DNA from: Pseudomonadota bacterium
Lineage (GTDB): Bacteria; Pseudomonadota; Alphaproteobacteria; Acetobacterales; Acetobacteraceae
DNA: 64,000 nt
Reading direction: 5' to 3'
NCBI GenBank assembly: GCA_021826225.1
Contig: JAKBAV010000001.1
Location: 40,064-104,063 of the forward strand
In this document: one piece after another, positions 15,420-63,884 of the stretch
How the letters are laid out: the number at the start of each line of letters is the position of its first letter
How positions within the stretch are numbered: position 1 is the first letter of the stretch
Translations under genes and position numbers: made by a program
Notes under the pieces: model-generated
What the model was told of the DNA's origin: nothing
Database searches by the model: none
The model's input: only the letters and a program-made list of their open reading frames with translations

Positions 15420-15691
15420 GACAGCGGTTATCGGTAACAGACCCGTATATGACCAAGGTGGGCGCAAACTTGCGGTAGATGGCTCAAAGGGGTGGCAATG
15501 GTGGTCGGTCACCATAAGCGTGGATTGAAGCGTCTACACTCGGAGTTGGCGTGGCAATCCCAGCCTGAATATGCGTAATCTGGGAACAGCCCAAGAACAT
15601 CTGCACGGATTTGGCTCCGATGACCTGTATGTTTTTGGGCTGATCTGGTCTACGGCAGGCCGATTTGCAACAGAGGGCAGGAGGCTATAAC
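15420..15691. other. Non-coding interval between glycan cluster and tRNA-Gly
   Basis: About 270 bases without a supported gene. I see no inverted repeats, integrase fragment or clear promoter. A short + frame around 15490-15580 has no family resemblance. It separates the AT-rich glycan genes from GC-rich core genes. Confidence 0.5.
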
Positions 15692-34911: not shown

Positions 34912-36666
34912 ATGGACCAGAAGCGCCTGCTCCTCGCCCTCCTCTTTTCCTTCGCTGTTCTGGGGGCGTTCGATTATATCGACACGCATTTCCTGCCGCA
35001 CCAGCCCGCCGTGACCAGTACGGCGGCGAGCGGCCCGGCGGGTAAAACGGCGCAGGAGGAGGCCACCACCCAGCCTCTCGCCCCGACAGGCATAACGGCC
35101 GGCACGAGCCCCGCCGCCGCGAGCCCCGGCCCGCGTCTCGCCATCGCAGCCCCGTTGATGCAGGGCAGCATCGGCCTCACCGGCGCGGTGTTCGACGATA
35201 TCACCTTACCCGCCTATCATGAGACCATCGACCCGAATTCCCCGCTGGTGCAGATCATGGGCCGCCGCGGCGGCCCCACCCCGACCTATGCTCAATTCGG
35301 CTGGAGCGGCCCGGCGGGTGTGAAGGTGCCCACCGACAGCACATTGTGGACCGCCTCGGGCGCCACGCTGACCCCGGCATCACCTGTCACTTTGTCCTGG
35401 GATAACGGCCAGGGCCTGACCTTCCAGCTTCTGCTCTCGGTCGATGACAAATACATGTTCACCGTCAACCAGAACGTGATCAACCACGGTACGGCGCCGG
35501 TTTCGCTGTTCCCCTGGTCCCGGGTGGTGCGCGACTACAAGCCTGTGGAGCAGACAAGCTGGGTGCTGTTCGATGGCCCGCTCGGCGTATTCGACGGCAC
35601 GCTGCAGCAGGAATCCTACAAGGCACTCAAGAACGACAAAGTCTGGCCGTCAGACGGCACCACCGCGACCAAGGGGCAAGGTGGCTGGGCCGGGATCACC
35701 ACTAAATACTGGCTGGCCGCCGTGGCGCCCGATTCCGGTGCCGCCATGAATGCCAGCATGAGCTACGGCACGGTTAAGGATGGCGATGGCGGTGCCTATC
35801 AGACCAGTTTCATCACCAGCAATGCCATCATCGCGCCGCCCGGCGGCCAGGCCGGCTTCACCAGCCATCTGTTCACCGGCGCCAAGGTGGTGCGCATTCT
35901 GGATGCTTACCAGTCCGAATACCACATCACCAACCTCTACAAGGCAGTGGATTTCGGCCATCTCTATATCCTCACCAAGCCGATCTTCTTCGCGCTCGAC
36001 TACCTGAACGGGCTGACCGGCAATTTCGGCCTGGCCATCCTTATCTTCACGGTCGGCGTCAAACTGCTGTTCTTCCCGCTGGCCAGCTATTCCTACCGTT
36101 CGATGGCGCGTATGAAGAACGTGCAGCCGAAGATCAAGGCGCTGAAGGACCAGTACAAGGACGACCAGACCGGACTGCAGCAGGCCACCATGGCGCTGTA
36201 CAAAGCGGAAAAGATCAATCCCGCCTCCGGCTGCCTGCCGATGCTGGTGCAGATTCCTGTGTTTTTCTCGCTCTACAAGGTCATCTTCATCACCATCGAG
36301 ATGCGCCAGGCGCCGTTCTATGGCTGGATCCATGATCTTTCCGCGCCGGACCCGACCAATTTGTTCACTTTGTTCGGCCTTGTGCCCTGGGACCCGGCCA
36401 CCATCAACCCGCTCCTGCATGTCGGGCTGTTGCCGATCATCATGGGCGCCACCATGTTCCTGCAGCAGCGCCTCAACCCGCCGGCGGCCGATCCGGCCCA
36501 GGCGCGCATGTTCCAGTTCATGCCGCTGCTCTTCACCTTCATGCTGGCGCGCTCGCCTGCCGGGCTGGTATTGTACTGGGCCTGGAACAACCTTTTATCC
36601 GTGGGGCAACAATGGCTGATCATGCGCCGGGCGATGCCGAAGAAGACGCTTCCGGCCAAGGCCTGA
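34912..36666 (+). CDS. yidC: Membrane protein insertase YidC
   Basis: The 584-residue protein has an N-terminal membrane segment (LLLALLFSFAVLGAFDYI), a large periplasmic P1 domain, and the C-terminal five-segment insertase core (KLLFFPLASYSYRSMARMKN and GCLPMLVQIPVFFSLY). It inserts inner-membrane proteins with or without SecYEG. It starts 5 bases after yidD. Its last 55 bases overlap engB. Confidence 0.96.
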   Translation: MDQKRLLLALLFSFAVLGAFDYIDTHFLPHQPAVTSTAASGPAGKTAQEEATTQPLAPTGITAGTSPAAASPGPRLAIAAPLMQGSIGLTGAVFDDITLPAYHETIDPNSPLVQIMGRRGGPTPTYAQFGWSGPAGVKVPTDSTLWTASGATLTPASPVTLSWDNGQGLTFQLLLSVDDKYMFTVNQNVINHGTAPVSLFPWSRVVRDYKPVEQTSWVLFDGPLGVFDGTLQQESYKALKNDKVWPSDGTTATKGQGGWAGITTKYWLAAVAPDSGAAMNASMSYGTVKDGDGGAYQTSFITSNAIIAPPGGQAGFTSHLFTGAKVVRILDAYQSEYHITNLYKAVDFGHLYILTKPIFFALDYLNGLTGNFGLAILIFTVGVKLLFFPLASYSYRSMARMKNVQPKIKALKDQYKDDQTGLQQATMALYKAEKINPASGCLPMLVQIPVFFSLYKVIFITIEMRQAPFYGWIHDLSAPDPTNLFTLFGLVPWDPATINPLLHVGLLPIIMGATMFLQQRLNPPAADPAQARMFQFMPLLFTFMLARSPAGLVLYWAWNNLLSVGQQWLIMRRAMPKKTLPAKA

Positions 36667-38889: not shown

Positions 38890-40005
38890 CTAGAACAGAC
38901 TCATCTGCACCGTGGCGGCCTGGGTGCGGGGGATGGTGAACTGGCTGAAATCGAGCATGCCGGCACCGCCCGTGAGGCCGAATTGCTTCACCGCGCGGTC
39001 GAAGCGCTTCTGCAGCATGTCCGCATAGGGGCCGGCGCCGCTCATGCGGCCGTGAAAATCCGGATCGTTGAGGCGCCCGCCGCGGCTTTGCCGGATCAGG
39101 CTGAGCACGTGGGAGGCACGCTCGGGCATATGCTTCTGCAGCCAGTCGGAAAACAGTGCGCCCAGCTCATGCGGCAGGCGGAGCAGCACGGTATGCGCGC
39201 TTTGCGCTCCGGCCTGGGCGGCTGATTCCAGGATGTTTTCCAGTTCGGCATCGTTCACGCCGGGGATCATCGGGGAGGCCATAACCCCAACCGGGATGCC
39301 GGCCTCTCGCAGTTCACGCATCGCAGCTAGGCGGCGGGCAGGGGAAGCAGCGCGGGGTTCCATGGCGCGCGCGAGAACGGGGTCGAGCGTGGTGATGGAA
39401 ATATGCACTTTCGCCAGGTTCTTAGCCGCCATACGGTGCAGGATATCGGCATCGCGCAGCACACCGGCGGATTTGGTGATGATGCCGACCGGGTTGCCGA
39501 AGCGCTCCAGCACCTCGAGCACGGCGCGGGTGATGGACAGGGTACGCTCGACCGGCTGATACGGGTCTGTATTGCTGCCGAGCACGATCACGTCGGGCTT
39601 GTAGCTGGATTTCGACAGCTCTTTTTCCAGTAGTTTCGCGGCTTCCGGCTTGAAGATGAGCTTGGTTTCGAAATCGAGCCCGGCGGAAAAGCCCAGATAG
39701 GCATGGCTGGGACGGGCGAAGCAATAGATGCAGCCATGCTCGCATCCCCGGTAAGGGTTCACGCTTTGTGCAAAAGAGATGTCCGGGCTATCATTACGGG
39801 TAATAATCGTGCGAGTCGCATCGCGGATCAGCGTGGTCTGCGGGGGGCGCGCCTTATCCTCGGGAAAATCCCAGCCATCATCAAAGGCTTCCAACCTTTC
39901 CGCCGCGAAGCGATGGGGTGGATTGGCGGCCGTGCCGCGCCCTTTAATGGCACCGGGGGGGACACCACTCTTGACTTTCAGCCGTGTTGAGATGTTCATG
40001 TTCAT
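38890..40005 (-). CDS. PA0069/Rv2578c-type radical SAM protein
   Basis: The 371-residue protein has the radical SAM cluster motif CEHGCIYC (about 90-97) and the family features YRGCEHGC, FETKLIFKPEAA and GSNTDPYQPVERTLSITR. Family members resemble spore photoproduct lyase but their reaction is unknown. A predicted LexA box and promoter lie just upstream, so DNA-damage control is inferred. Start is ATG 40005. Confidence 0.85.
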   Translation of the reverse strand: MNMNISTRLKVKSGVPPGAIKGRGTAANPPHRFAAERLEAFDDGWDFPEDKARPPQTTLIRDATRTIITRNDSPDISFAQSVNPYRGCEHGCIYCFARPSHAYLGFSAGLDFETKLIFKPEAAKLLEKELSKSSYKPDVIVLGSNTDPYQPVERTLSITRAVLEVLERFGNPVGIITKSAGVLRDADILHRMAAKNLAKVHISITTLDPVLARAMEPRAASPARRLAAMRELREAGIPVGVMASPMIPGVNDAELENILESAAQAGAQSAHTVLLRLPHELGALFSDWLQKHMPERASHVLSLIRQSRGGRLNDPDFHGRMSGAGPYADMLQKRFDRAVKQFGLTGGAGMLDFSQFTIPRTQAATVQMSLF

Positions 40006-40022
40006 GTTCCGTTCTGACCTTG

Positions 40023-40066
40023 ATTAAGGTCATTCCGGGTTCTTATGTCAAGAACAAAATAAGAAC
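40023..40066 (-). promoter_or_regulatory. Predicted LexA box and sigma70 promoter for the radical SAM gene
   Basis: On the - strand the sequence GTTC-TTATTTT-GTTC (40066-40052) matches the alphaproteobacterial LexA operator GTTC-N7-GTTC exactly. Directly after it lies TTGACA (40051-40046), 17 bases, then CTTAAT (40028-40023), a good sigma70-type promoter. The start codon is about 17 bases downstream. A GTTCTT-N5-AAGAAC palindrome overlaps the box. Inference: SOS control of the radical SAM gene. Confidence 0.65.
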
Positions 40067-40121: not shown

Positions 40122-40667
40122 TTATTTAAGGTGTTCGTTCAACCGCGGCATCAGCTCGACGAGGTTGCACGGCTTATGCCGCGAATCGAGCTGGAATTTG
40201 AGAATTTCGTCCCAGCCATCTTTCACTGCACCAGTCGAGCCCGGCAGCGCGAACAGGTACGTGCCGCCGGCCACGCCGCCCAGCGCGCGGGACTGCATGG
40301 TTGAGGTGCCGATCTTGTTGTAGGAGATAGCGCGGAACAGCTCCCCGAACCCCTCGATTTCCTTATCGATCACGCGCTTGAAGGCTTCCGGGGTGACATC
40401 CCGGCCGGTGACGCCGGTGCCGCCGGTGGTGATGATCACGTCGATATCATGAGCCGAAATCCAGGCATCCAGATGCGCCACGATGTCGCTGACCTCATCG
40501 AGCAGGACGGCGCGGGCGACCAGAACATGCCCCGCTTCGGTAACGCGGGCGGCCAGCGTGTCGCCTGATATGTCATCGGCAAGCTGGCGGGTGTCGGAGA
40601 TTGTGGCGATGGCAATGCGGACAGGGATGAAGCGGACGGATTCGTCGATCTGATCGGTGCTGGACAT
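40122..40667 (-). CDS. moaB: Molybdenum cofactor biosynthesis protein B
   Basis: The 181-residue protein has the MoCF motif TTGGTGVTGRDVTPEAF and the LPGSTGAVKDGW segment. MoaB/MogA proteins adenylate molybdopterin before molybdate insertion. It is the only such gene visible near the molybdenum hydroxylase group 14 kb away. It starts 9 bases downstream of the transglycosylase stop on the same strand. Confidence 0.92.
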   Translation of the reverse strand: MSSTDQIDESVRFIPVRIAIATISDTRQLADDISGDTLAARVTEAGHVLVARAVLLDEVSDIVAHLDAWISAHDIDVIITTGGTGVTGRDVTPEAFKRVIDKEIEGFGELFRAISYNKIGTSTMQSRALGGVAGGTYLFALPGSTGAVKDGWDEILKFQLDSRHKPCNLVELMPRLNEHLK

Positions 40668-40676
40668 CCGCCCTAC

Positions 40677-42341
40677 TTAATTCGCGCTGGCGACAGTATC
40701 AATGGTGCCCAGCGTGGGGAAATTGCCTTGCGCCAACTGGTCGAGGCTGGCGGGCTGCATGCCGATCTCCTCAGAATAGAGCCAGCTATCGGCCATCACC
40801 TGGCGGACGAACCGGCGCGTTTCGGCATTGGGAATGGTCTCAATGAAGAGCAGGGGGTCGGAACTGTCCTGTAGCTGCGCGATCCAGCCGGCAGCGGCGT
40901 TGGGGCCGGCATTATAACTGGCGAGCACGGCGAGCAGATTGTTGTCGATGCCCGGTTGCCGGGCGAGGTAGGTGAGATAGGCCTGACCGTAAGCGAGATT
41001 GGCCGAAGGGTCGGAAAGCGGGCCCGAGATGCCGGCATGGCGGTGCATCACCTCTGCCGTGCTCGGCATCAGCTGCATCAGCCCGCGCGCGCCGCAGCGC
41101 GACACCGCATTGGCGTTGAAACCCGATTCGGTGCGGGCCAGCGCATAGATGAGGGCGGGATCGACGGTGAAGCCGCCGGTGGGGTGCATGGCGGGCAAAG
41201 GCAGCCGCGCCCCGGCAATCTCGTCGACCGGCGAGGGCAGGGTGTTGGCCAGAGCGATGGCGACATCGGCGAGGCCCGCCTGGGCGGCGACGGCCAGCAC
41301 GGCATGAGCAAGGTCGGGGCTGGCCTGCATCTGCGGCCACAGGGCGCGCAGATTATCGGCGGCATCGCCGGTCAGGCCGATCTGCATCTGCTCGAAGGCG
41401 AGATGGCCCTGCGGCGTGGCGTCGACGGCGGTGATATCGGCTTCCGTCAGCGGCCCGGCGAGGCCGCTATCGCCAAAGCCCTGGCCGAGCAGGCGCCCAG
41501 CCAGCATGCCGTAGAACGTCTCCGGCTGGGCAGCGGCCTGTTGCAGCCATTGCAGATATTGCGTGGGCTGCTGCGAGCGCAGGGCGGCGCGGGCAGTCCA
41601 GAACTGGCTGGCGGCGCGGTCATCAGCGGAAATACCGGCAAGCTTGGTGGAAAAGGCGAAATCCTGGCCGGCCGTGACGATATCGCCTTGCTCCCAGGCG
41701 GCGAGGCCGGCTGCGAACTGACGGTGCCAGGCGGCGCCGTCAGGCGCGGAGACGGGATGGGCGGCGGCGCTGGGCACCAGGGTCTGTTCAGGCAGCAATG
41801 CCACATGCGGGGCGGGCGGAAGCTCATCGCGGGCCAGCTTGTGCTGCATCAGCTGATAGATCGCCGGGGCTTCGGGCTCGGCGGCATAATGCGCCCACCA
41901 GGCGGTCAGCTCGGCTGGCTTCGTGATGTAACTGGGGCTCAGATAAAGCCTCGCCAGGATAGCACCCATGGCGGAAGGGTCGCTCAAACGCGTGGCCATG
42001 CTGGCGGCCTGGGTATACGCGCCCTGAGCCTGCAGTTCCATTATGCGCTGGTAGATGGCGACATCAGACGGCGAGAGCGGCTGCGGCAGCATGATTTCGA
42101 CATTGCCGGCCGGTGCGTTGCGCGGCACGGCATAGGCCACACTATCCCCGTTCAAGGCGCTAAGCGGCGCTGTTGGGGGGGTAGCCGTTCCCTGCCCTTG
42201 TCCCAGATCCGGGGACTTCGCGAATGCGCTGGTGGGAACCACCAGGGCGCAAGCGAAAATGGACATCGTGGCGATCATGGTGGTGATCATTGCCGTACGA
42301 TTCACATTCAGGCGGGAGAGCGTTTGAGAGGCTCCTCGCAT
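40677..42341 (-). CDS. Soluble lytic murein transglycosylase
   Basis: The 554-residue protein starts with a signal peptide (hydrophobic MITTMIATMSIFACALVVPTSAFA, cut after A). It has a long helical region and a C-terminal Slt domain with the catalytic Glu in ALARTESGFN and GLMQLMPSTA. It cleaves peptidoglycan in the periplasm and leaves 1,6-anhydro ends. The track ORF begins at a TTG two codons earlier; I use ATG 42341, and an ATG at 42290 would still keep the signal peptide. Confidence 0.88.
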   Translation of the reverse strand: MRGASQTLSRLNVNRTAMITTMIATMSIFACALVVPTSAFAKSPDLGQGQGTATPPTAPLSALNGDSVAYAVPRNAPAGNVEIMLPQPLSPSDVAIYQRIMELQAQGAYTQAASMATRLSDPSAMGAILARLYLSPSYITKPAELTAWWAHYAAEPEAPAIYQLMQHKLARDELPPAPHVALLPEQTLVPSAAAHPVSAPDGAAWHRQFAAGLAAWEQGDIVTAGQDFAFSTKLAGISADDRAASQFWTARAALRSQQPTQYLQWLQQAAAQPETFYGMLAGRLLGQGFGDSGLAGPLTEADITAVDATPQGHLAFEQMQIGLTGDAADNLRALWPQMQASPDLAHAVLAVAAQAGLADVAIALANTLPSPVDEIAGARLPLPAMHPTGGFTVDPALIYALARTESGFNANAVSRCGARGLMQLMPSTAEVMHRHAGISGPLSDPSANLAYGQAYLTYLARQPGIDNNLLAVLASYNAGPNAAAGWIAQLQDSSDPLLFIETIPNAETRRFVRQVMADSWLYSEEIGMQPASLDQLAQGNFPTLGTIDTVASAN

Positions 42342-42448
42342 GGGCAAACCCGTACAACAGCATCTGGGTGAGATGCAAGAGCTGTGGGTGAGATGATTCT
42401 CTCTTATTGAGACGATTTGAGCCTATTCAGGGTGTTAAGGCCCGGTTC

Positions 42449-43246
42449 TCATATCACGTTTTCGTGATAATCGCCGGACTCAAGCCATTCCCGCAGCAGC
42501 AGAAGGTCCTGCCAAGACTCTGGCTTTGCTGTGGGGGTGCGCAATAAATACGCGGGGTGGTAGCTCGGCAGGCAGAATAATGGCGAGTCGAGATCCTGGA
42601 TCGTGGCCGGGCGCCAGGCGCCGCGCAGCCGCCTTATGCCCTGGTTTCCAGCCTCCGGGAGCAGCGCCCTGGTGGCGATGGCGCCAAGCGTGACCAGCCG
42701 TTGTGGGCGGATGAGAGCGATATGGCGGTGCAGGAAGGGCAGGCAGAGGGCGATTTCTGACTCGGACGGGGCGCGGTTGCCCGGCGGACGCCAGGGTACG
42801 GTATTGATGATGCGAACCCGGCGCCGGTCCAGCCCGATACTGCCCAGCATGCGGTCGAGCAACTGCCCGGCGGCGCCGATAAAGGGCCGGCCGGCGCGGT
42901 CCTCCTCCGCCCCCGGAGCCTCGCCGATAATGACGAGCCGGGCATCCTCGGGACCTTCGGCGAAGACGAGCTGTGTCGCGGTGTCGCGCAGGGCGCAGCC
43001 GGTAAAGCCGTCCAGCGCGGCTTTCAGTTCGTCCAGGCTGTGGCAGGCGGCGGCGGCGCGCGCGGCTTCTGCTGGGCCGCCGGGGAGTGCGGCTGGTCTC
43101 GGCGACGGGCGGGCAGGTGGCGTTGCGGGGGAGAGGGTTGCCGGGGGAATGGCGGGTGTGGCGCCACGACGGTCCTGTGGCGCGTCGAGCAGCGCCTCGT
43201 CGGCCCCCCATTCATATTGTAGGCGCAAAGCCGCCAAAACATCCAT
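42449..43246 (-). CDS. Uracil-DNA glycosylase, family 4-like
   Basis: The 265-residue protein has GEAPGAEEDRAGRPFIGAAG (family 4 motif), TVPWRPPGNRAPSE and PSYHPAYLLR. The alphaproteobacterial form is recognisable by GCALRDTA and the WRPPGNR segment. It removes uracil from DNA; [4Fe-4S] binding is typical, although the first Cys pair here shows a single Cys (GCAL). The track ORF is far longer (42449..43720), but ATG 43246 is the family start. Confidence 0.88.
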   Translation of the reverse strand: MDVLAALRLQYEWGADEALLDAPQDRRGATPAIPPATLSPATPPARPSPRPAALPGGPAEAARAAAACHSLDELKAALDGFTGCALRDTATQLVFAEGPEDARLVIIGEAPGAEEDRAGRPFIGAAGQLLDRMLGSIGLDRRRVRIINTVPWRPPGNRAPSESEIALCLPFLHRHIALIRPQRLVTLGAIATRALLPEAGNQGIRRLRGAWRPATIQDLDSPLFCLPSYHPAYLLRTPTAKPESWQDLLLLREWLESGDYHENVI

Positions 43247-43418
43247 GCCGTCTCTATAACGCCTCCTCTGGCCGGACCAAAATCGGCCAATGCCGGAGGC
43301 CGTTGAGACTTCCGCGAAAGGCAACGCAGCGGCGCGGCGCCGCGCCCAGTACCGGCTGGTATTCCCCCCAGGCAAGATATTGAATAAAGCAGGGTGGCAA
43401 TTCAGAAGGGAGCCTTGA

Positions 43419-45068
43419 ATGTCAGAGGAACTGTCGCCGCGCGAGACGCCGCGCGAAGCCATGGAATTCGATGTGCTGGTGATCGGCGCCGGGCCTGCCG
43501 GGCTGTCGGCCGCCATCAAGCTCAAACAGGTCAACCCGGACCTTTCTGTCTGCGTCGTGGAAAAAGGCTCCGAGGTCGGCGCCCACACGCTGTCGGGCGC
43601 GGTGATCGAGACGCGGGCGCTGAAAGAGCTGTTCCCCGAGATCGATGTCGGGATGATCCCGCTCGCCACGCCGGTGACCGAGGACAAATTCATGTTCCTC
43701 ACGGAAACCAGGGCCTTCACCTCGCCGATCTGCCCGCCGACGATGAATAATCACGGCAACTACATCGTCTCGCTTGGCAATGTAGTGCGCTGGCTCGGCC
43801 AGCAGGCCGAGGAGCTGGGGGTGGAAATCTATCCCGGATTCGCCGCCGCGGAACTACTGATCGAGGAGGGGCGCGTGGTCGGCGTTGCCACCGGCGATAT
43901 GGGTATCGGCAAGGATGGCGAGCCCACGGATAATTACCAGCGCGGCATGGAATTGCGTGCCACTTATACAGTGTTCGCGGAAGGCTGCCGCGGCTCGCTC
44001 TCGAAACAACTCGAAAAACAGTATGACTTGCGCAAGGACGTCGATCCGCAAACCTACGCCATCGGCATTAAGGAATTATGGGAGGTCAGGCCAGAACAGT
44101 TCAAAAAGGGGTTGGCGGTGCATAGCATCGGGTGGCCGCTGAAGAGCGACACCTATGGGGGCGCGGCGATCTATCATTTCGGTGAGAATCTGGTCGCCTT
44201 TATATTCGCAGTCGGGCTTGATTACACCAATCCCTATCTGTCTCCTTTCCAGGAGATGCAGCGCTACAAGACGCATCCGGCCATCGCGCCGATGTTCGAG
44301 GGGGGGAAGCGGATATCCTACGGCGCCCGCGCACTGAACGAGGGGGGCTACCAATCCCTGCCGAAACTGACCTTCCCGGGCGGCGTGCTTATCGGTTGCG
44401 CGGCCGGAACGCTCAACGTGGCGAAAATTAAAGGTACGCATACCGCGATGAAATCCGCCATGGTCGCGGCCGAGGCCATTGCCGAGGCGTTGGCCGGCGA
44501 GAAGCCCGCCGAGGTGACCGCCTATTCCGAAAAGCTTAAAGCCAGCTGGGTCTATCCGGAGCTGCATGAAGTCCGCAACGTCCGTCCGGGCTTCGCCAAA
44601 TGGGGTTTCTGGGGTGGGTCAATAAATGCCGGTATCGAAATGATACTGCGCGGCAAGACGCCCTGGACGCTACACAACCACCATGCCGATAATGCCATGC
44701 TCAAGAAGGCCAAGGACTCTACCGCCATCACTTATCCCAAGCCCGATGGCAAACTCACCTTCGATCGCCTTTCCTCGGTCTTCCTCTCCAACACCAACCA
44801 TGAGGACAACCAGCCGCCGCACCTCACGCTCCTCAACCCGGCCGTGGCGATCAACGTGAACTATAACGAATATGCCAGCCCCGAGACGCGCTATTGTCCG
44901 GCCGGAGTGTACGAAATTGTCGGCGAGGAGGCCGGTACGCCGCGCCTGCAGATCAACGCGCAGAACTGCGTCCATTGCAAAACCTGCGACATCAAGGACC
45001 CTACCCAGAACATCAACTGGGTGGTGCCGGAAGGCGCGGGCGGCCCGAACTATCCGGGTGGCATGTGA
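43419..45068 (+). CDS. Electron transfer flavoprotein-ubiquinone oxidoreductase
   Basis: The 549-residue protein has an N-terminal FAD motif [15 protein letters not shown], a central FGGN-type quinone region and a C-terminal [4Fe-4S] domain (CPAGVYEI ... [13 protein letters not shown]). It passes electrons from ETF to ubiquinone and so links fatty-acid and amino-acid oxidation to respiration. RBS AGAAGGGAG is 7 bases before the ATG. The stop overlaps dapB (GTGA). Confidence 0.95.
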
Positions 45069-61032: not shown

Positions 61033-63884
61033 GATTCTGTTCCTCCTCCTTCTCGGATAATGCGGTTGAAAATTTCCTGCACGCCTTGCGCGGTTTCATC
61101 CATGGCGGCGCGCAGATGGGAAAAATCGATGTTGTCCGTAGCGCGCAGCAAAGGGGCCAGCATGGCGGGCGGCGGCTCTCCGGCGTGGTCGGGCAGGCCG
61201 GTGATGCGGTTGATACCCTGGATGCTTCGCCAGAACATGTCGGCGCTGGTGAGCAAGGCGGCATCGTCGGTGCGCAGCAAGCCGGCCTCGCCCAGCGCCT
61301 GCAAGGCGGCCTTGGTGTTGGGCTGGAACAATGCCGGCCGCGCCGGGCCGTGAATGAGTTGTAGGGCCTGGGCGATGAAACTCACCTCCATCATGCCACC
61401 AGACAGGGCTTTTACATCCCATATGCCGCGCGGCGGCAGTTCCGCGCCAAGCCGGTCGCGCATGGCGGCGGTGTCGGCGAGGATCTTGCGCGCCGGATCG
61501 GGGCGGCACAGCGCCTCGCCAATGGCCGCGCGCACCACCGGGGCAAAGCCTGGTGTCGCCGCCAGCACGCGGGCGCGGGTAAGGGCGAGGCGCTCCCAGG
61601 TCCAGGCTTCATGCGCCTGGTAACGCCGGAAGGCGGCCAGGGATACGGCGACAGGGCCCTGATTGCCGGAGGGGCGCAGCCGCATGTCGACATGGTAGAG
61701 CTGGCCCTCCTTGCCACGCGTTGTCAGCGCTCCGGTGAAGGCATGCGAGAGCCGCACGAACCAGGGGGTCGGGGCGATGGCGGCGGGGGCGTGGTCATAC
61801 AGCATCATCAGGTCGAGGTCGGAGCCCGCCAGCATCTCCCCGGCGCCCGCCTTGCCCATGGCGACCACGGCGAACCGCGCCCCGCGTATTGTGCCGTGGC
61901 GCTGTCTATGCGCCGCCAGCACAAGCGGCAGCAGCAGCGAGAGCGCCGACTCCGCGAGCGCGCTGCGCAGTTTTCCCGCCGCATCGGCATCCATGCGGCC
62001 TTCAAGCGTGGCGACAGAGAGGTGAAACTCCTCGCGCCGGACGAAGAGCCGGGTGATGGCGGTGGCCTGTTCCAGATCCCGCGCCTCGGCCAGTTGGCGG
62101 CGCAATACCGGCCTGGGGGCGGCGAAGCGCGCGGTCGGGCTGAGCAGGGCTTCCAGCGCCTGGGCATCCTGCGCCAGATGCTCGGCCAAAGCCGGCGCGG
62201 CGCCGAGCACGGCGGCCAGGCGGCGCAACAATGCCGGGTTGCGCCGGAACAGCGAGAGCAACTGTACCCCGGCGCGCTGCTGGCCGAGCAGTGTGTCGAA
62301 ATGCGAGAAGGCCTTGTCCGGGTCAGGCTGCGCCGCCAGCGCATCAAGCAGATGCGGCACCAGCCCGTCGAGGATTTCACGCGCCAGCGGTGTGCGCAAC
62401 GCCGGCATCCTGCCGCTGGCCCAGTCGCGCAGCCGCTCGGCGATGTGCCGGTCATCGCGGAAGCCGAGGCGATGCAGATGCGCGGTGAATGCCGCGGGCG
62501 GTGGACCCTCCGTACCCGGATCGATCACTGGTTGCAGTTCTTCGCCGGGGGCGAAAAAAGCATGGAAATGCCGGTGGACACGGCCAAGCAGGGCCGGAAA
62601 TGTCGTGCGGAAATGCGGCGCGTGCAGAAACACCGCGAAGGCGTCGAGCCCGGCCTCGGTTGCCGGCAGTGCGTGGGTCTGGCGGTCAGCGACCATTTGC
62701 AGCCGGTGCTCCACCCGGCGCAGCTCGCGGTAATCCGCCGCCAGCGCGCGGGCCACCTTATCGTTTATATGCCTGGCGCGGACCAGGGCGGCGAGGCCGG
62801 TCAGCGTTGCCGGAATACGCAGAGCAGGCTCCTGGCCGCCCCAGACGAGCTCCAGCGTCTGCACGATGAACTCGATCTCGCGTATTCCGCCAGCGCCGCG
62901 CTTCACATCCGCGCCGAGCAGCCCCCGGCCGCCATTTTGCGCGTCGATCTGCCGCTTCATGTCGTGAATATCGTGAATCGCCGCGAAATCGAGATATTTG
63001 CGCCAGATAAAGGGGCGTATGGTGGCGAGAAAATGCCTGCCGAGTGCGATATCCCCCGCCACCGGCCGCGCCTTGGAAAATGCCGCGCGTTCCCAGGTGC
63101 GGCCCTGGCTTTCATAATAGGTCAACGCCGTTGGCAGGGCGACTACCGGCGGTGTGGCCGAGGGGTCGGGGCGCAGGCGCAGGTCGACGCGGAACACGTA
63201 GCCATCCTCGTCCCGCGCCGAGAGCAGGGTGGTGAGATCGCGGGCGAGCCGGGCCATCTGGCCCGAGGCCTCCGGGCCATAAACGGGGTTATCGGGGTCG
63301 TAGAGCAGGACGAGGTCGATATCCGAGGAATAATTCAGCTCGAACGCACCGAGCTTGCCAAGGCCCAGCGCGACGAAACCGCTGCCGCGTTCCGGGTCCC
63401 GTGGGTCTGGTAAAACGATCTGGCCGGCCTCGTGCAGTTGCAGCAGCAAATGCCGCACCACGGCGCGGAGCGCCAGTTCCGCCAGGGCCGAGAGCGCGCC
63501 GGTGATGCGCTCCAGCGGCCACAGCCCACCTATGTCGGCAATGGCGAGGGCCAGGGCGACCTGCCTTTTGGCTTGGCGCAAAGCGGCGGCCAAAGTGGCG
63601 CGCGGCGTGGTGGCGGGCAGTCTGCCCAGACCATCCAGCAAGGAGGCGATATGCACCTCCGGGCCGCTTGCCATGCAGGTCAGCAGCGCTCCCGAGTCGC
63701 GCAGAGCGAGATCGCTCAGATAGGGCGCGTTGCCGCCCAGGGCGGCGAGCAGCGCGCGACCCGCTACCGAACCCGCGAATTGCCGTTCCGCATCGCCGAT
63801 GCTGGAAAAATCGGAAATGAGCCGCGCCGCCGCCGCGGTATCGGCGGGTTGGGGGTAGTCCGGCTTGTCGGTAGGGCTCTGCAT
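61029..63884 (-). CDS. glnE: Glutamine synthetase adenylyltransferase/adenylyl-removing enzyme
   Basis: The 951-residue bifunctional protein carries two nucleotidyltransferase sites: YSSDIDLVLLYDP (N-terminal deadenylylating half) and GSDLDLMMLYDH (C-terminal adenylylating half). It controls glutamine synthetase in response to PII/glutamine. It overlaps bcp by 4 bases. Confidence 0.95.
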   Translation of the reverse strand: MQSPTDKPDYPQPADTAAAARLISDFSSIGDAERQFAGSVAGRALLAALGGNAPYLSDLALRDSGALLTCMASGPEVHIASLLDGLGRLPATTPRATLAAALRQAKRQVALALAIADIGGLWPLERITGALSALAELALRAVVRHLLLQLHEAGQIVLPDPRDPERGSGFVALGLGKLGAFELNYSSDIDLVLLYDPDNPVYGPEASGQMARLARDLTTLLSARDEDGYVFRVDLRLRPDPSATPPVVALPTALTYYESQGRTWERAAFSKARPVAGDIALGRHFLATIRPFIWRKYLDFAAIHDIHDMKRQIDAQNGGRGLLGADVKRGAGGIREIEFIVQTLELVWGGQEPALRIPATLTGLAALVRARHINDKVARALAADYRELRRVEHRLQMVADRQTHALPATEAGLDAFAVFLHAPHFRTTFPALLGRVHRHFHAFFAPGEELQPVIDPGTEGPPPAAFTAHLHRLGFRDDRHIAERLRDWASGRMPALRTPLAREILDGLVPHLLDALAAQPDPDKAFSHFDTLLGQQRAGVQLLSLFRRNPALLRRLAAVLGAAPALAEHLAQDAQALEALLSPTARFAAPRPVLRRQLAEARDLEQATAITRLFVRREEFHLSVATLEGRMDADAAGKLRSALAESALSLLLPLVLAAHRQRHGTIRGARFAVVAMGKAGAGEMLAGSDLDLMMLYDHAPAAIAPTPWFVRLSHAFTGALTTRGKEGQLYHVDMRLRPSGNQGPVAVSLAAFRRYQAHEAWTWERLALTRARVLAATPGFAPVVRAAIGEALCRPDPARKILADTAAMRDRLGAELPPRGIWDVKALSGGMMEVSFIAQALQLIHGPARPALFQPNTKAALQALGEAGLLRTDDAALLTSADMFWRSIQGINRITGLPDHAGEPPPAMLAPLLRATDNIDFSHLRAAMDETAQGVQEIFNRIIREGGGTES

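Follow-up and report, generated by a model that had tools for sequence, protein, structure and literature searches.

The window analysed here, a 64,000-nucleotide stretch of DNA from a member of the Acetobacteraceae, contains a radical SAM gene for which a first-pass annotation had claimed an exact LexA box adjoining a promoter, and the locus thus raises two questions: whether the gene belongs to the SOS regulon and what its product might do. Both of the claimed elements are present, with GTTC-N7-GTTC at 40052-40066 on the minus strand and TTGACA-N17-CTTAAT on the strand of the radical SAM gene. Reading along the minus strand, the box GTTCTTATTTTGTTC (O1) is followed directly by TTGACA, 17 nt, CTTAAT and the radical SAM ORF (Table 1). 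A strict sigma-70 scan missed this promoter because of its CTTAAT -10 hexamer.

Table 1. Features of the radical SAM locus, numbered along the window
Feature	Position	Strand	Description
O1, LexA box	40052-40066	-	GTTCTTATTTTGTTC; GTTC-N7-GTTC
-35 hexamer	40046-40051	-	TTGACA; no gap after O1
-10 hexamer	40023-40028	-	CTTAAT; 17-nt spacer; weak by consensus
O2, inverted LexA box	40000-40014	-	GAACGGAACATGAAC; GAAC-N7-GAAC; overlaps Shine-Dalgarno; 52 bp start-to-start from O1
PA0069-family radical SAM gene	38890-40005	-	NF033668, 499.2 bits (cut-off 360); ORF of 371 aa
moaB	40122-40667	-	Upstream neighbour; TIGR02667, 237.5 bits; O1 lies between moaB and the radical SAM gene

The encoded protein matches NF033668 (NCBIfam, PA0069 family radical SAM protein) over model positions 1-348 of 348. 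Among 80 named loci, moaB lies no further than 3 kb from the radical SAM gene in 37, a gene for a lytic transglycosylase in 10 and a counterpart of the window's uracil-DNA-glycosylase-like ORF in 6. The window also features a loose gene cluster at 40122-43720 on the minus strand, with counterparts in loci L142-L221.

Conservation of the LexA box upstream of PA0069-family genes

Counts of the box pattern were considered as stand-alone evidence and rejected as being near background, both in the window (four occurrences of GTTC-N7-GTTC against 1.0 expected, a number reached by 2 of 100 shuffles) and genome-wide (28 occurrences against 23 for a reversed control pattern). Two further matches in the window, at 15584-15598 (minus strand) and 34957-34971 (plus strand, within the ORF at 34912-36666), have GC-rich spacers and probably arose by chance.

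The first-pass annotation had suggested looking for the box upstream of orthologues. Among 240 evenly drawn alphaproteobacterial genomes, 118 encode a protein over the NF033668 cut-off, and 111 of the corresponding promoters were examined. GTTC-N7-GTTC occurs on the strand of the gene in 94 of these, compared with 0-3 of the 111 for any other spacing from N3 to N12 and 0-2 for the reversed word at N7. The class consensus of the box is atGTTCTTGATTTGTTCt with a TAnnnT -10 at a distance that puts the usual -35 (TTGATT) inside the box. The layout in the window's genus is unlike that of the class, as TTGAC directly follows the box. Across 29 genus loci, the box (29/29), TTGAC (28-29 of 29), a T-rich -10 and a second block, GAAC-N7-GAAC, are all kept, while the spacers between them are scrambled. 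The box is also present in 79 of 88 loci sampled across the Acetobacteraceae (mostly one per genus), with TTGA next to it in 74 of the 79. A TTGA- or TTGC-type -35 right after the box, without the second block, was additionally seen in scattered loci outside this family (L037, L039, L106 and L116). Although the bare pattern barely exceeds its genomic background, a chance match is excluded for practical purposes by this conservation in class orthologues and family loci, and by genus mates that retain the box, TTGAC and a T-rich -10 around a scrambled spacer.

In three Pseudomonas loci, which constitute the gammaproteobacterial evidence, and in one locus from a betaproteobacterial MAG, the same position is occupied by CTGT-N8-ACAG, the LexA motif of gamma- and betaproteobacteria. 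LexA control that persists while the LexA motif itself changes is strongly indicative of function, and Sanchez-Alberola et al. (PMC3323433) argued in the same way for 'splB' in alpha- and betaproteobacteria. Taken with the class-wide conservation, this motif switch lends strong comparative support to the proposal that the radical SAM gene is under SOS control.

Other SOS genes of the window genome, recA and uvrA/ssb, carry boxes as well. LexA was identified over its cut-off in all 12 genus mates searched, and lexA has the same box upstream in those that were fetched. A canonical lexA was not found in the window's own assembly, which fits its 87% completeness. The assembly does contain a weak LexA-family match, which was rejected as canonical LexA and proved to be an XRE-type S24 regulator. 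The window genome also has a gene for an XRE-type S24-peptidase regulator distinct from LexA (contig C65; L010, about 1489-2264, and L021), which could possibly be a second SOS-controlled regulator: a conserved GAACAWAACAAGAAC box precedes it by approximately 120-130 bp in five of the six genus loci compared, which include mates L270, L271, L274 and L275.

An inverted second box beyond the promoter

The conserved second block corresponds to an inverted box (O2) that was absent from the first-pass annotation. In the window, O2 contains the first ATG of the ORF; translation probably starts at Met3 (ATG at 39999-39997) instead, because genus mates start translation after O2. Within the genus, O2 is found in 28 of 29 loci at a start-to-start distance of 51-52 bp from O1. 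Across the family, 57 of the 79 promoters with O1 also have O2 and it is missing from the other 22, while the O1-O2 distance in the 57 is confined to 48-52 bp (51 bp in 29 loci and 50 bp in 22). In the class-wide set, the only one of 94 boxed promoters to feature O2 is that of the window itself.

The overlap between O2 and the Shine-Dalgarno sequence in the window led us to suspect an artefact of the ribosome-binding site, with O1 as the sole LexA operator and GAAC-N7-GAAC as a translation-initiation feature made up of that site and its conserved flanks. In accordance with this, the Shine-Dalgarno GGAG falls within the N7 of O2 in the window's genus, and the class motif fits O2 less well than O1 (12.1 and 21.8 bits, respectively, where the best of 23 other boxes in the genome scores 14.0 bits). 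The family-wide comparison answers this concern: in named relatives that include Neoroseomonas and Roseomonas, O2 is GAACGAAATGGGAAC or GAACACAAGGTGAAC, whose spacers are not Shine-Dalgarno sequences and which lie upstream of the ribosome-binding site. Furthermore, the two half-sites of O2 are held at exactly N7 in 57 family loci, against 0-6 loci for other spacings. We therefore consider a purely translational role for O2 to be improbable.

A whole-genome search with the composite pattern GTTC-N7-GTTC-N31..39-GAAC-N7-GAAC returned exactly one site per genome in 49 of 100 family genomes, while a reversed control of the composite returned none in the same 100. Comparison of coordinates by eye placed 48 of these 49 sites directly upstream of a PA0069-family gene; for the 49th, the contig stops 108 bases past the site and the gene would fall beyond its end. 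One Acetobacteraceae genome (G312) has two copies of the gene, where the copy on contig C96 is preceded by the O1-O2 pair (62681-62745) and the copy on contig C107 (L330) by a single class-type box with no O2.

Among the family loci (L281-L368), O1 scores 14.2 bits against the class motif where O2 is present and 22.6 bits where it is absent (Mann-Whitney p = 4e-8). The weaker O1 resembles compensation, but we do not claim correlated evolution, as only one independent pair was available on well supported branches of the tree and an effect of relatedness is not separable. Overall, the conserved arrangement makes it very probable that LexA controls the radical SAM gene through two opposed sites flanking its promoter, and this arrangement is conserved in the Acetobacteraceae.

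A predicted spore photoproduct lyase-like fold outside the lyase family

The first-pass annotation had likened the protein to spore photoproduct lyase, which holds for its fold and fails for its sequence family and its hydrogen donor. A predicted structure of the window protein (mean pLDDT 80) was searched against the PDB, and the six best matches were all spore photoproduct lyase (E 5e-10 to 1.3e-8, TM about 0.5, 16-18% identity), while sequence searches of the PDB provided no close homologue. The lyase family models TIGR04070 and TIGR03886 have cut-offs of 400 and 437.55 bits, but the protein reaches only 14.4 and 12.8 bits, respectively, a level that unrelated radical SAM families also attain. 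When profiles were compared with those of lyase-like proteins from other alphaproteobacteria, the match had a probability of 64%, and its register around the hydrogen-donor position was too unreliable to support claims on individual residues. The nearest sister by sequence is the Rv2578c family (NF038135), where a score of 205.5 bits is below the cut-off of 430 and the protein is not a member.

Spore photoproduct lyase relies on a cysteine as hydrogen donor, C140 in the enzyme of known structure. The only three cysteines of the window protein, C88, C92 and C95, are the ligands of a Cx3Cx2C cluster motif that is invariant in 111 homologues, and no additional conserved cysteine was found among these homologues. 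With every cysteine of the protein being a cluster ligand, the hydrogen-donor cysteine is missing. The enzyme is thus predicted to share the lyase fold without this cysteine, and it is not a member of the spore photoproduct lyase family.

A role in DNA repair, as the first-pass annotation had suggested, is plausible, and regulation and predicted fold together make a nucleic acid our best guess for the substrate. It is also possible, if less favoured, that the enzyme is SOS-induced and has RNA, a peptide or a small molecule as its substrate instead of DNA lesions. The similarly weak sequence matches to the protein include peptide and cofactor radical SAM families, and its frequent neighbour moaB is a cofactor gene, but class-wide LexA control and the lyase-like fold both point to nucleic acid. 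A true spore photoproduct lyase that repairs UV lesions would agree with the best fold matches and with the 'splB' annotation discussed below, but is very unlikely given scores that are so far below the family cut-offs and cysteines that are cluster ligands only.

A model for LexA control and its relation to known systems

We favour a model, to which we assign a probability of roughly 0.78, in which the radical SAM gene belongs to the LexA (SOS) regulon, has a dual operator and encodes a lyase-fold enzyme whose most likely target is damaged nucleic acid. Our data establish the two operators as conserved sequences, the promoter and the protein family, from which LexA occupancy, cooperation between the operators and the function of the enzyme are inferred. 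LexA would bind two oppositely oriented operators, one (O1) adjoining the -35 on its upstream side and the other (O2) covering the ribosome-binding site and the presumed start of the transcript. As the distance of approximately 51 bp is near five helical turns, two LexA dimers would be expected on the same face of the helix in mirror orientation. With both operators occupied, perhaps cooperatively, we infer that polymerase would be occluded and the promoter shut from both sides. DNA damage would then trigger RecA-driven self-cleavage of LexA, which would free the promoter and allow the enzyme to be made. The product would be a radical SAM enzyme with a spore photoproduct lyase-like fold, most likely active on damaged nucleic acid, whose chemistry would differ from the cysteine hydrogen-donor route of the lyase. 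A more ambitious version is tentative and, in our view, rather doubtful as a whole: that the Acetobacteraceae have a two-operator LexA switch at this one gene only, in which the promoter is clamped, possibly through a small DNA loop or cooperative binding, so that an enzyme with a lyase-like fold and a non-lyase active site stays tightly repressed until DNA is damaged. This would imply an undescribed chemistry that acts on nucleic acid by direct reversal or modification.

The E. coli lexA and colicin gene promoters likewise have two LexA sites, which there are closely spaced palindromes. Unlike these, the promoter described here is flanked by two opposed direct-repeat boxes that are approximately 51 bp apart. 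The two LexA operators of the E. coli lexA promoter are documented in PMC9210283.

In 2012, Sanchez-Alberola et al. (PMC3323433) predicted that 'splB' is LexA-controlled in alpha- and betaproteobacteria; they named the gene product a photolyase and did not report a second operator. Their alphaproteobacterial splB is very probably the PA0069 family, an assignment that is supported by the lack of any spore photoproduct lyase over cut-off in the 240 alphaproteobacterial genomes. The regulation is of the same class, with LexA boxes upstream of an alphaproteobacterial radical SAM gene; our analysis differs in that the PA0069 family is resolved, the lyase assignment is not borne out and gammaproteobacterial orthologues from Pseudomonas are shown to be boxed too. 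As at this locus, LexA-controlled radical SAM genes of the COG1533 type have also been described for Gram-positives, Balneolaeota and Bacteroidetes (PMC7739468, PMC8565304), whose LexA motifs differ. A literature search for PA0069 together with LexA found no reports among the papers covered. LexA control of a SplB-like gene in alphaproteobacteria was therefore already predicted. What is new is the assignment to the PA0069 family, the evidence that speaks against a photolyase, and the paired, opposed LexA operators specific to the Acetobacteraceae.

A radical SAM gene recurs in the SOS regulons of many phyla, where its product is usually named a photolyase. That standing label is probably wrong for the proteobacterial version, because the proteobacterial family is distinct and is without the lyase hydrogen donor. 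The dual operator suggests unusually tight control, of the kind that would be appropriate for an enzyme with harmful effects in undamaged cells, and the O1/O2 promoter provides a compact test case for cooperative binding by alphaproteobacterial LexA.
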